Assembly: GCF_007483665.1 (NCBI RefSeq)
Contig: NZ_VIQO01000050.1
Coordinates: 1 to 64,000, forward strand
Reading direction: 5' to 3'
Origin: Catellatospora sichuanensis
Lineage (GTDB): Bacteria > Actinomycetota > Actinomycetes > Mycobacteriales > Micromonosporaceae
Length of the DNA: 64,000 bases
In this document: positions 6,081-12,164 of the stretch, piece by piece
How the letters are laid out: each line of letters starts with the position of its first letter
Position numbering within the stretch: the stretch's first letter is position 1
Program-made: the position numbers and the translations under genes
The notes under the pieces: model-generated
Told to the model about the DNA's origin: nothing
The model's database searches: none
Seen by the model: only the letters and a program-made list of their open reading frames with translations

Positions 6081-6614
6081 TCAGGAGAGGTCGTCTTCGA
6101 TGACGAGGAGGTCGTCGGAGGCGTTGTCGAGGCCGGCCCAGCCGGCGAACTTGGCGGCGAGGGCTTCGCCGCCGGCGGGGTCGCGGGCGACCACGAAGAT
6201 GGTGTCGTCGCCGGCGATGGTGCCGACGAGGTCGGGCAGGCCGCTGCGGTCGATGGCGCTGGCCAGGTAGTGGGCCGCGCCGGGCGGGGTACGCAGGACG
6301 GCGAGGTTGCCGCTGTGGTCGGTGCCGTTGAGGACCTCGCGCAGCAGGCGGATCAGGCGGGCGGGGCCCATGGCGGCTGGGCGCAGCGCCGGGTGGCCGT
6401 CCTCCGGGATGAGGTAGACGGCGGGTGCGCCGTCGCGGCCGCGCACCTTGACGGCGCCCAGCTCCTCCAGGTCACGAGAGAGGGTCGCCTGCGTCACCTG
6501 CACCCCGTCCGCCGCCAGCAACTCGGCGAGCTGGGTCTGCGACGTCACCGCGCCGCTACGGATCAACTCCTCGATCCGGGCGTGGCGGGCGGTGCGGGTC
6601 ATCGGCGCGGTCAT
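6081..6614 (-). CDS. argR: arginine repressor ArgR
   Basis: Arginine-responsive hexameric repressor of arginine genes. 177 residues. N-terminal winged helix ([28 protein letters not shown] then [16 protein letters not shown]) and C-terminal arginine-binding/oligomerisation domain with the [14 protein letters not shown] signature. The ATG overlaps the stop of a 24-codon mini-ORF (ATGA), so its translation is probably coupled to argF. It is the last gene of the argC-to-argR chain, giving feedback on the ARG-box promoter in front of argC. Confidence 0.97.
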
Positions 6615-6685
6615 GCCGTCACCTCGCTTCGCTCGGCTCCGTCAAGGGAGGCACTTGTCATGATTCGCTCGCGAAGCTCGCTCAT
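6611..6685 (-). CDS. bridging mini-ORF (24 aa) before argR
   Basis: Starts MSELRERIM and ends GAERSEVTA. Its ATG overlaps the stop of the preceding mini-ORF and its TGA overlaps the argR ATG (both ATGA). The last 25 bases are an exact repeat of the end of the neighbouring mini-ORF (6612-6636 = 6683-6707). It carries a GCGAGG Shine-Dalgarno-like string seven bases before the argR start. Probably works as a translational relay rather than as a functional peptide (inference). Confidence 0.5.
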
Positions 6686-6732
6686 GCCGTCACCTCGCTT
6701 CGCTCGGTTCCATGCGGAGAACCGTCGGTCAT
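6682..6732 (-). CDS. bridging mini-ORF (16 aa) after argF
   Basis: Starts MTDGSPHG and ends TERSEVTA. Its ATG overlaps the argF stop (ATGA) and its stop overlaps the next mini-ORF start (ATGA). It shares its last seven codons with the mini-ORF before argR. Confidence 0.45.
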
Positions 6733-7676
6733 GCCTGCTCCATGAGGAACGTCAGCAGCGCCTTCTGCGCGTGCAGTCTGTTCTCAGCCTGATCGAAAAC
6801 CGCGCTCGCCGCACCGTCCATCACCTCATCCGTGATCTCCTCGCCGCGGTGGGCGGGCAGACAGTGCAGCACGATCGCGTCCGAGTCGGCGTGGGCCAGC
6901 AGCGCGGCATTGATCTGGTACGGCAGGAATGGGGTGATCCGGTCCAGCCCGTCCCCTTCGTGGCCCATCGAGGTCCAGGTGTCCGTGGCGATCACGTCCG
7001 CCCCGGACACCGCGTCCTTGGCCTCGGTGTACTCGGTGACCGAACCGCCGGTGCGGGCGGCGACCTCGGCCGCCTGGGCCAGGATCGCCCGGTCGGGGGT
7101 GAACCCGAACGGCCCGGCGATGCGCACGTGCATGCCCGCCACCGCGCCGCCGAGCAGGTACGAGTGCGCCATGTTGTTGGCCGCGTCGCCGACGTAGGTC
7201 AGCGTGCGGCCCTGCGTGTGCCCCAGCCGCTGCCGCACCGTCTGCAGGTCGGCCAGCACCTGGCAGGGGTGGAAGTGGTTGGTGAGCGCGTTGACCACGG
7301 GCACCGTCGCCGCCGCGGCCAGCTCCTCGATCCGGGTGTCCTCGAAGGTCCGGATCACGATCGCGTCGACGTACCGGGACAGCACCTTCGCCGCGTCGGA
7401 CATGGTCTCGCCGCGGCCGAAGTGCGTGTTCGTGGCGTCGATCAGGACCGCGTGCGCGCCGAGTTCGGAGATGCCGACCTCGAACGACACCCTGGTGCGC
7501 AGCGACGGCTTCTCGAACAGCACGGCGATCGCCTTGCCGTCCAGGGCCTTGCGGTGCCCGCGCCGGTTCTCGGCGTACTCCTGGGCGAGCGTCAGGACCT
7601 GGTCCTGCTCCGCCGAGGTCAGGTCGTCGTCACGCAGGAAGTGCCGTCTGCTCGAGGTGGCAGCGTGCCGGGTCAT
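6729..7676 (-). CDS. argF: ornithine carbamoyltransferase
   Basis: Makes citrulline from ornithine and carbamoyl phosphate. 315 residues; carbamoyl-phosphate loop [12 protein letters not shown] (STRTR type), [11 protein letters not shown], and the ornithine-binding [10 protein letters not shown] are intact. The ATG overlaps the argD stop as ATGA. An open frame continues upstream through argD in another phase, so the start was set by the overlap and by N-terminal length. Carbamoyl phosphate is supplied by carAB at 46-50 kb. Confidence 0.97.
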
Positions 7677-9929: not shown

Positions 9930-10000
9930 GCCTTCTCCTCGCCACGCTCGTCGGCGGAATGTTCACCGGGCCGCATGATGAGCGCGCTCCGCTCGCTCAT
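9926..10000 (-). CDS. bridging mini-ORF (24 aa) argJ-argB
   Basis: Begins MSERSALIM and ends [11 protein letters not shown]. The ATG overlaps the argJ stop and the TGA overlaps the argB ATG (ATGA at both ends). Similar in both termini to the argB-argD mini-ORF. Confidence 0.5.
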
Positions 10001-11154
10001 GACGAGTACGCCGAGTTCTCGTGCACGTACGCGTGGGACAGGTCGTTGGTCCACACGGTGGCGCTGTGGTCGCCGGCGTTGAGGTCCACGGTGATGTGCA
10101 CGTTGACCCCGGACAGGTCCACCTTGCTGCGGTCCTCGGCGGCGGCCCCGGCCCGGCAGATCCACACGTCGTTGATGGCGACGTCCAGCTCGTCGGACTC
10201 GAACACGGCGTCGGTGCAGCCGACGGCGGCCAGGATCCGGCCCCAGTTGGGGTCCTTGCCGAACAGCGCGGTCTTGACCAGGTTGTTGCGGGCGATCTCG
10301 CGGCCCACGATCACCGCGTCTTCCTCGGAGTCGGCGTTGATCACCTCGATGGCGATCTGCTTGGTGTGCCCCTCGGCGTCGGCCAGCAGCTGCTGGGCCA
10401 GCTCGTGGCAGGCCCGGGTGACGGCGGCGGTCAGCTCCTCCTGCGTAGGCTCGACGCCCGACGCGCCGGAGGCCAGCAGCAGCACCGTGTCGTTGGTCGA
10501 CATGCAGCCGTCGGAGTCGAGCCGGTCGAAGGTGAGCCGGCAGGCCTCCCGCAGCGCCTCGTCGAGGGCGTCGCCGCCGGCCATCGCGTCGGTGGTGAGC
10601 ACGCACAGCATCGTCGCCAGCGACGGGGCGAGCATGCCCGCGCCCTTGGCCATGCCGCCGACGGTCCAGCCGTCGCCGGTCTCCACCTCGACCACCTTGG
10701 GCCGGGTGTCGGTGGTCATGATGGCCTCCGCCGCGGCGAAGCCGCCCGCCTTGGCCAGCGCCTTGGTCGCGCCGTCGACGCCCGCCAGCAGCTTGGGCAT
10801 GGGCAGCCGCTCGCCGATCAGCCCGGTCGAGCAGACCGCGACCTGGCCCGCGCCCATGCCGCCCAGCCGGGAGGCGACGTACTCGGCGGTGGAGTGGGTG
10901 TCCTGGAAACCGCCCGGTCCGGTGCAGGCGTTGGCGCCGCCGGAGTTGAGCACCACGACCTTGACCGCGCGGCCCTTGATCACCTGCTGCGACCAGAGCA
11001 CCGGGGCGGCCTTGACCCGGTTGGCGGTGAACACGCCGGCGGCGGTGGCGTCGGGGCCGTCGTTGACGACCAGCGCCAGGTCCAGCGCGCCGGTGCCCTT
11101 CAGCCCTGCGGCGACACCCGCGGCCCGGAAACCCTTGGGGGAGGTCACGGTCAT
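9997..11154 (-). CDS. argJ: bifunctional ornithine acetyltransferase / N-acetylglutamate synthase
   Basis: Recycles the acetyl group from N-acetylornithine to glutamate. 385 residues from the ATG that overlaps the argC stop (ATGA). The autocleavage region KGAGMLAPSLATMLCVLTTDA has the Ala-Thr bond whose Thr becomes the nucleophile of the beta chain. Other family blocks: NSGGANACTGPGGFQDT and NWGRILAAVGC. Presence of argJ implies the cyclic acetyl pathway. Confidence 0.97.
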   Translation of the reverse strand: MTVTSPKGFRAAGVAAGLKGTGALDLALVVNDGPDATAAGVFTANRVKAAPVLWSQQVIKGRAVKVVVLNSGGANACTGPGGFQDTHSTAEYVASRLGGMGAGQVAVCSTGLIGERLPMPKLLAGVDGATKALAKAGGFAAAEAIMTTDTRPKVVEVETGDGWTVGGMAKGAGMLAPSLATMLCVLTTDAMAGGDALDEALREACRLTFDRLDSDGCMSTNDTVLLLASGASGVEPTQEELTAAVTRACHELAQQLLADAEGHTKQIAIEVINADSEEDAVIVGREIARNNLVKTALFGKDPNWGRILAAVGCTDAVFESDELDVAINDVWICRAGAAAEDRSKVDLSGVNVHITVDLNAGDHSATVWTNDLSHAYVHENSAYSS

Positions 11155-12164
11155 GGTGCGACTCCGAAGACGGACAGGCCGGAGGTTTCCGGCAGGTCGA
11201 ACATGATGTTGGCGCACTGCACGGCCTGCGCCGCCGCGCCCTTGCCGAGGTTGTCGATCGCGGAGACCACGATGATCCGGCCGCTGTCCACGTCGACGGT
11301 GGCCTGCAGGTGCGCGCTCGCCGAGCCGAGCACGGCGGCGGTGTGCGGCCACGCCCCCTCGGGCAGCAGGTGCACCAGTGGCTCGTCGCCGTACGCGTCG
11401 GCGAGCACCGCGCGCACCACGCTCGCGGTGATGTCGCAGTTGGTGGGCTTGGCGGTGACCGTGGCCAGGATGCCCCGCGGCATCGGCGCGAGCACCGGGG
11501 TGAACGACAGGCTCGCCGCGCCGGTGGCCTGCTTGATCTCCGGCACGTGCTGGTGCGACCCCACCTTGTACGGGCTGAGGTCCCCCATCACCTCGCTGCC
11601 CAGCAGGTGGAGCTTGGCCGACTTGCCCGCCCCGGACGTGCCGGAGGCGGCGACCACGACCACGTCCTCGGCTTCGGCCAGCCCGCTGTGCAGCAGCGGC
11701 GCGAGCGCGAGCGTGGTGGCTACGGCGTAGCAGCCGGTCGCGGCCACCCGGGCCGATCCGGCGATCAGCTCACGCTGGCCGGGCAGCTCAGGCAGGCCGT
11801 AGGTCCAGGCCCCGGCGTGCTCGCCGCCGTAGTAGCGGGTCCACGCCGCCGCGTCGTGCAGCCGGTGGTCCGCGCCCAGGTCCACCACCTTCGCGGTGGC
11901 GGGCAAGCCCGCAGCGACCGCGCCCGACTCGCCGTGCGGCAGGGCCAGGAAGACGAGGTCGGTGTCGGCGAAGACCTCGGCAGTGGTCTCGGTCAGAATG
12001 AGGTCGAGCCCGGTGAGGTGCGGGTGCACCGCCGCGACCGGCTTGCCGGCCTGGCTGTGGGCCGTGGCCGCGACGAGTTCGAACTCGGGGTGCCCGGCGA
12101 TGAGGCGCAGCAGCTCGCCGCCCGCGTACCCGCTGGCCCCGGCGACGCCGATCCGGATTCCCAT
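11151..12164 (-). CDS. argC: N-acetyl-gamma-glutamyl-phosphate reductase
   Basis: NADPH-dependent reduction of acetylglutamyl phosphate. 337 residues. N-terminal dinucleotide motif GASGYAGGELLRL and catalytic-Cys segment AATGCYAVATTLALAPL are present. ATG 12164 is chosen for its GGAGGT ribosome site six bases upstream and because the fold begins there (GIRIGVAGASG); an ATG 57 nt upstream lies inside the promoter. First gene of the arg operon. Confidence 0.97.
   Translation of the reverse strand: MGIRIGVAGASGYAGGELLRLIAGHPEFELVAATAHSQAGKPVAAVHPHLTGLDLILTETTAEVFADTDLVFLALPHGESGAVAAGLPATAKVVDLGADHRLHDAAAWTRYYGGEHAGAWTYGLPELPGQRELIAGSARVAATGCYAVATTLALAPLLHSGLAEAEDVVVVAASGTSGAGKSAKLHLLGSEVMGDLSPYKVGSHQHVPEIKQATGAASLSFTPVLAPMPRGILATVTAKPTNCDITASVVRAVLADAYGDEPLVHLLPEGAWPHTAAVLGSASAHLQATVDVDSGRIIVVSAIDNLGKGAAAQAVQCANIMFDLPETSGLSVFGVAP

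Follow-up and report, generated by a model that had tools for sequence, protein, structure and literature searches.

Introduction

Mycobacterial interspersed repetitive units (MIRUs), whose description is reportedly due to Supply et al. in 1997, and repetitive extragenic palindromic (REP) repeats, which are short, dispersed, hairpin-forming, without a gene of their own and associated with RAYT/Y1 transposases, are the repeats with which we compare an element found in the window, the 64,000-nucleotide (nt) stretch of the Catellatospora sichuanensis genome analysed here (contig NZ_VIQO01000050.1, positions 1 to 64,000). The arg operon of this window, which runs on the minus strand from argC to argR, includes four very small open reading frames (mini-ORFs, m1 to m4) that bridge its junctions, and these mini-ORFs are diverged or truncated copies of one dispersed repeat of about 71 nt. 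We consider it probable that an operon built of direct gene overlaps was invaded by this MIRU-like repeat, and that its frame-kept mini-ORFs relay ribosomes from gene to gene, a tolerance that would be under selection.

Publications given by PubMed Central (PMC) identifier are cited for the parts of their text that were available. MIRUs are mycobacterial short interspersed repeats said to be mobile and to insert at start codons, with an internal ORF coupled to the next gene at -4 (PMC12548453); a 77-nt class I MIRU forms the whole 5' untranslated region of a gene whose M. marinum orthologue is leaderless (PMC4128351). Mycobacterial small ORFs coupled through RTGA, where R is A or G, were counted in 23/220 cases as compared with 32/1000 random sites, and the coupling is thought to be more important than the peptide (PMC4633059, Shell et al. 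2015). In E. coli and Haloferax, coupling by termination-reinitiation at ATGA overlaps all but disappears once the genes are separated by about 20 nt (PMC10666635). The first-pass annotation of this window, made from the letters alone, held that relay ORFs are not an annotated class; the MIRUs and the RTGA-coupled small ORFs, both already in print (PMC12548453, PMC4633059), contradict this. A literature search, incomplete for subscription journals, found no description of such a repeat in Micromonosporaceae, and the available text of PMC3364876 likewise contains none. What is apparently new is a Micromonosporaceae repeat family, along with its start-codon hairpin, in which compensatory changes occur, and the measurement of frame keeping. 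The structure is real and non-random, and is better described as a MIRU-like repeat family than as a new type of genetic device.

The likeness to MIRUs extends to several features. Both are repeats some tens of nt long, scattered over many intergenic loci, with tandem arrays at some of them, and both contain an internal ORF that overlaps its two neighbours at RTGA with a -4 spacing, here in 53/53 copies lying between two genes. Unit lengths are 2 mod 3 in both (77 nt for class I, PMC4128351; 53-nt tandem spacing in genome G502), the 3' end GAGCGNAGCGA...GGAG...GCATGA of MIRU-type loci is similar, and here too, at the arg junctions only, units are inserted at stop/start overlaps whose counterparts in relatives are empty. 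However, the 5' half differs, the present repeat has a core with a start-codon hairpin, and it is centred on Micromonosporaceae rather than mycobacteria. MIRU-type 3' ends occurred in 6/249 genomes of the order, these six belonging to a single genus, taken as Mycobacterium; in five such loci that were fetched, the common motif is read in two frames, whereas the mini-ORFs are spaced at 50 or 53 nt, both 2 mod 3. A profile of the present repeat scored these loci at E 0.016-0.17 (best reversed control 0.8), a comparison that is partly circular as the loci were picked beforehand by a shared motif, and homology to MIRUs is possible. Because the host genome belongs with the Micromonosporaceae, the repeat is best said to work like a MIRU, not to be one. 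MIRU-type behaviour would thereby be extended from mycobacteria to another actinobacterial family.

The arg mini-ORFs are copies of a dispersed repeat

The operon is ordered argC, argJ, m1, argB, m2, argD, argF, m3, m4, argR, and a check of ORFs and junctions found nine consecutive RTGA overlaps along it, the four mini-ORFs included. Every junction, size and coordinate of this chain as first annotated was reproduced. At each mini-ORF the stop overlaps the next start as RTGA, and, as in the mycobacterial small ORFs of Shell et al., the TGA of the small ORF contributes to the RTG start of the following gene; those ORFs are mostly leaderless first ORFs and are not described as a repeat (PMC4633059, available text), whereas the present ones lie mostly between genes and are repeat copies. 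The -4 overlap at each link is also that of termination-reinitiation at ATGA overlaps, although the latter are direct gene-gene overlaps with no relay unit (PMC10666635).

A repeat unit consists of RTGAGCGAGCGNAGCGAGC, a variable core and GACGAGCGNAGCGAGGAG..GC, followed by the RTGA of the next gene. The RTGA at its start is the stop of the upstream gene, AGGAG lies inside, and its end is the downstream start codon. The spacings of m1 to m4 are 71, 65, 47 and 71 nt, each 2 mod 3; m3 shares a 24-nt 3' end with m4 and lacks the first half of the unit.

Copies are numerous in this genome. The 5' end RTGAGCGAGCGNAGCGAGC matched 27 times, compared with 0 for the reversed control, and some adjacent matches were 65 or 71 nt apart; tandem arrays have periods of 65 nt (three copies) and 71 nt, with three units at 71 nt also found by profile search. 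A strict whole-unit pattern, its core length left free over 31 lengths, gave 113 copies in 20/300 genomes of the family, with 100 copies in 9/11 members of the genus. The search profile was built from 78 distinct strict copies (of at least 113 known) parsed from chosen loci that were fetched; the four arg units and a further window copy near 29 kb fall outside the strict pattern and are left out of this set. Over 464 kb of this genome, made up of the window, which was chosen for its cluster, and 400 kb of contig C1, the profile gave 19 matches (0 in the reversed sequence), of which 18 extend to the 3' end of the unit and 16 to both ends. The window holds five of the 18 (m1 to m4, m3 being the weakest, and the copy near 29 kb) and C1 the other 13, so that, if C1 is typical, scaling from it suggests about 300 copies per genome.

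Among 201 relatives, the 5'-end pattern was present in 66, comprising 61/121 of the family and 5/80 in the rest of the order; its reversed control matched once (G123). Assignment of the family to Micromonosporaceae, used in all counts, is based on the nearest named ArgJ matches, which are from Spirilliplanes, Micromonospora, Salinispora, Actinoplanes and others at 72-75% identity. Separately, tandem arrays of the 5'-end motif were seen in other genera and families, all with 2 mod 3 spacing: five copies at 77 nt (G118:C1:4019738-4020064), three at 62 nt (G185:C88:995-1137) and two at 77 nt (G170:C297:5482-5577).

The presence of units at many unrelated loci rules out arg-specific regulation as their role. 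A known structured RNA was also rejected, as Rfam gave no match up to E 1 within 4400-12600. Leaderless promoters ahead of units were not apparent either: a -10-like hexamer at leaderless distance occurred in 2/19 copies without a recognised upstream gene and in 0/59 with one.

Copies of the repeat keep their reading frame

Among the 78 strict copies, 75 are 2 mod 3 in length and open from the 5' RTG to the 3' RTGA (71 nt in 35, 68 in 21, 74 in 18 and 56 in one); the remaining three measure 69, 70 and 73 nt. Bridging was found in 53/53 copies between two genes and in 9/11 that follow another unit, and 5/6 copies that follow a gene with no gene directly behind are in frame. The difference between the 53/53 and the 22/25 others (Fisher 0.03) is a weak contrast because 11 of the others follow another unit, and eight, all of them in frame, have no gene or unit upstream. 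In the 464 kb, all 18 profile matches have an open, in-frame NTGA upstream at spacings of 47, 59, 62, 65, 68, 71 and 80/86 nt, each 2 mod 3, and in 11/13 gaps between genes that contain the repeat the chain runs through from one gene to the other. Within the variable core, the mini-ORF frame has a single stop triplet, and the two other frames have 14 and 17 (about 927 triplets per frame). Frame keeping in the copies is therefore real, and together with the stop avoidance it supports, without proving, a relay of ribosomes by termination-reinitiation.

Chance was gauged with a simple codon-based gene finder on same-strand gaps of at least 8 nt, leaving out gaps with a possible start at -4; the expectation came from the same gaps frame-shifted by removing one or two bases. 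Chains of ORFs bridged 24/136 gaps of the 464 kb, as against 6.0 expected, and on C1 alone 7/9 gaps with the repeat (1.0 expected) and 11/99 without it (3.3 expected). That chance frames in ordinary gaps account for the chain can practically be discounted: some 3% of repeat-free gaps should be bridged by chance (4.0 of 123), but the observed bridging and the 75/78 copies in frame far surpass this, and the frame-shift controls and copy phases rule out such an origin. The first-pass annotation had taken the in-frame bridging to suggest selection for ribosome hand-over, an idea that is partly supported. Frames are indeed kept far beyond chance; what is not supported is the picture of ordinary gaps tuned within the arg operon, as the units are inserted copies of a repeat that also occurs at numerous unrelated loci, and repeat-free gaps of this genome have no phase preference (phases 0/1/2 = 44/36/43). 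The same phases rule out that all gaps in this genome keep frame.

It is very improbable that the mini-ORFs are kept for functional small peptides. Their translated ends are alike across copies (MSERSER..., ...DERSEEKA), but the core between them varies greatly in both sequence and length, the first half is missing from m3, and the mycobacterial look-alikes read their common motif in two frames.

Occupied and empty sites at the arg junctions

Relatives have junctions without the repeat. Among the 11 genus members, direct 4-nt overlaps are found at argJ-argB in 9/11, argB-argD in 9/11, argC-argJ in 6/11 and argF-argR in 1/11, and at argD-argF in all 10 that were scored; the m1 site (argJ-argB) and the m2 site (argB-argD) are thus each empty in 9/11. 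Of 121 arg loci, 70 had all five junctions scored, and 21/70 consist of five direct overlaps, counting junctions where a start at -4 is possible. Direct overlap is therefore likely to be ancestral, and the window's nine overlaps probably comprise five old ones and four units, an overlapped operon invaded by repeats. The eye-catching arg chain would then be explained as repeat invasion. In a phylogeny of concatenated Arg proteins, empty-site species separate this genome from G004, the two that carry the argB-argD unit; the unit was therefore either gained twice or lost several times. At argF-argR the genus has chains of 17, 20, 47, 62, 71, 47+71 and 62+71 nt, all bridged. Sister species that differ in having a unit at a given gene pair offer a natural, replicated experiment on how far bacteria need termination-reinitiation coupling, and on whether being translatable is what lets intergenic repeats persist.

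A search of relatives for frame-breaking gaps at these junctions, as proposed in the first annotation, did not overturn the selective reading. Chain-bridged arg gaps of at least 10 nt in the 121 loci numbered 17/19 in the genus, 18/22 in the rest of the family and 25/39 outside it, after dropping rows with a possible start at -4 (0, 13 and 26, respectively, all of phase 2). Both unbridged gaps in the genus lack a bridge because their stop is CTGA, which gives no start. Phase 1 to phase 0 ratios were 15:3, 19:3 and 32:4 in the same order, independent of row dropping and of which in-frame start is picked, with the proviso that related species are not independent samples; 6/10 phase-0 gaps are two-unit chains.

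A second repeat (GTGAGCGCGAGGA..CGCAGTCGNGAACGAA..RTGA) was seen at similar sites in 16/81 genomes of the family. In its GTGA form it occupies argC-argJ in G001, G004 and, diverged, G009, and it extends to other genera; it was also noticed in the argC-argJ gaps of L033, L036, L041, L045, L056, L074, L078 and L083. Its copies are 2 mod 3 in 53/72 cases, above one third but clearly looser than the main repeat (Fisher p 1e-4).

The probable course of events can be set out as follows. From a start state of direct RTGA stop/start overlaps, the repeat would have settled at three arg junctions as four units, each of which, by its 2 mod 3 length, would create a mini-ORF that shares 4 nt with each neighbour. 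A ribosome would end a gene at the RTGA of the unit, restart on the mini-ORF, pass the hairpin, end at the next RTGA and restart on the following gene. An untranslated 71-nt insert should be costly because gaps of about 20 nt nearly abolish coupling (PMC10666635); with the mini-ORF, coupling would survive the insertion, and this tolerance may be what is selected. A stop or frame error would break the relay, and both are rare in the data.

Several observations weigh against invasion followed by selected relay. Copies with neither gene nor unit upstream, where no relay from an upstream gene is expected, are also in frame (8/8). Only three strict copies are broken: two (L184, L209) lie ahead of a first gene with a divergent upstream neighbour, and the third (L024) follows a co-directional gene, though no gene starts at its end. 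In two of the 13 repeat-holding gene gaps the chain does not connect the two genes. Lengths of 68, 71 or 74 nt account for most copies, and recent descent may thus explain some of the frame keeping. The two end R bases agree in 64/78 copies, which falls short of exact target duplication, and no mover was found when the Y1 transposase family was searched in the genus genomes and the fetched loci.

Some of these points would suit a neutral or selfish repeat whose founder was 2 mod 3 by luck and whose copies keep this length by recent descent, with no frame selection after insertion. The concentration of 74/78 copies at 68, 71 and 74 nt and the in-frame units ahead of first genes (8/8) favour such a history. 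However, neutral insertions and deletions should yield all phases, whereas every one of the varied spacings in the 464 kb is 2 mod 3; the core stops are distributed 1/14/17 by frame; and only 53/72 copies of the second repeat, which occupies similar sites, are 2 mod 3. We therefore judge a purely neutral repeat unlikely.

As to how the repeat might move, its 5'/3' R bases are AA in 53 of the 78 copies, GG in 11, GA in seven, AG in six and CA in one, so that the two are associated, with frequent disagreement. In G003 and G006 the argC-argJ unit begins with GTGA, whereas the empty site reads ATGA. The unit ends may have arisen by target duplication or by insertion just before RTG. The repeat resembles REP elements in being short, dispersed, hairpin-bearing and without a gene of its own, but differs in having no link to a Y1 transposase: this family is present in 6/11 genus genomes and absent from the unit-carrying G002, G004 and G006, and nine fetched transposase loci contained no unit, which leads us to reject it as the mover.

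A predicted hairpin over the start codon

In the 3' half of the unit, CATGCC can pair with GGCATG in a predicted stem that would enclose the start codon of the next gene. Of the 78 copies, 51 have T-A as the start-codon pair, 13 have C-G and one has T-G. Sliding one arm reduces pairing from 80% to 22-50%, and in 42 unique arm pairs 217/294 cells pair, a number reached in 0/2000 shuffles (204.0, sd 2.1, after shuffling), though these tests are inflated by shared descent. In the window, the stem letters are kept in m2, mostly in m1, and not in m3 and m4; single folds gave a different result.

These features raise the alternative that the unit is a portable ribosome-binding site and hairpin only, serving start control, RNA stability or transposition, with the open frame as a by-product. 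AGGAG a few bases ahead of the start codon and the compensated stem accord with it; it does not predict a 2 mod 3 length or frame-specific stop avoidance, and m3 and m4 do not fold in this way. We regard it as quite improbable.

Bridged gaps without the repeat

Bridging is not a general rule, but it is over-represented in several places. Syntenic stretches of five congeners, arg operon included, had 18/119 gaps bridged (4.6 expected). Repeat-free gaps of the 464 kb are bridged in 13/123 cases (4.0 expected). Without the repeat, 65 arg neighbourhoods outside the family gave 48/281 (9.1 expected), or 17/182 (5.4 expected) with the arg operon excluded, and 15 named Micromonosporaceae loci gave 8/58 (1.0 expected), or 0/38 (0.7 expected) with the same exclusion, which was made by position and is approximate.

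A bolder proposal is that several unrelated families of mobile relay cassettes in Actinomycetota invade stop/start overlaps, and that a hairpin over the downstream start codon makes the next gene depend on ribosomes delivered by the cassette, which would be why selection keeps the mini-ORFs open; relay ORFs would then form a general, mostly unannotated layer of operons. The excess of bridged gaps without this repeat (13/123, 48/281 and 17/182) favours it, but the 0/38 in named Micromonosporaceae loci speaks against it, and we hold it possible yet rather doubtful.

The features of the window are collected below.

Table 1. Genes, mini-ORFs and repeat units of the window, the arg operon being listed from argC to argR.
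Feature	Coordinates	Strand	Remarks
argC	11151..12164	-	TGA overlaps argJ start, ATGA 11154-11151
argJ	9997..11154	-	overlap with m1, ATGA 10000-9997
m1, 24-aa mini-ORF, 71-nt repeat unit	9926..10000	-	profile E 7e-15; overlap with argB, ATGA 9929-9926
argB	9045..9929	-	overlap with m2, GTGA 9048-9045
m2, 22-aa mini-ORF starting GTGA, 65-nt repeat unit	8980..9048	-	profile E 2e-5; overlap with argD, ATGA 8983-8980
argD	7673..8983	-	TGA overlaps argF start, ATGA 7676-7673
argF	6729..7676	-	overlap with m3, ATGA 6732-6729
m3, 16-aa mini-ORF, shortened 47-nt repeat unit	6682..6732	-	profile E 8e-4, 3' part only; overlap with m4, ATGA 6685-6682
m4, 24-aa mini-ORF, 71-nt repeat unit	6611..6685	-	profile E 6e-14; overlap with argR, ATGA 6614-6611
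argR	6081..6614	-	ORF
further repeat copy, bridging in frame	29155..29244	-	between two unrelated genes, 29241..29843 and 27926..29158

Two further observations concern gaps of arg loci. Outside the family, argC-argJ (L088-L152) is often bridged by a mini-ORF, with gaps of 28 to 103 nt and of many lengths, nearly all 1 mod 3, in which the present repeat is not obvious. In the argH-argR gap of the window (5940-6060) lies an imperfect inverted repeat, GATCATGAACTT ... AAGTTCATGATC, whose inner letters are similar to those in the argJ-argB gap of L059 (G028), and which looks like another dispersed palindromic element.

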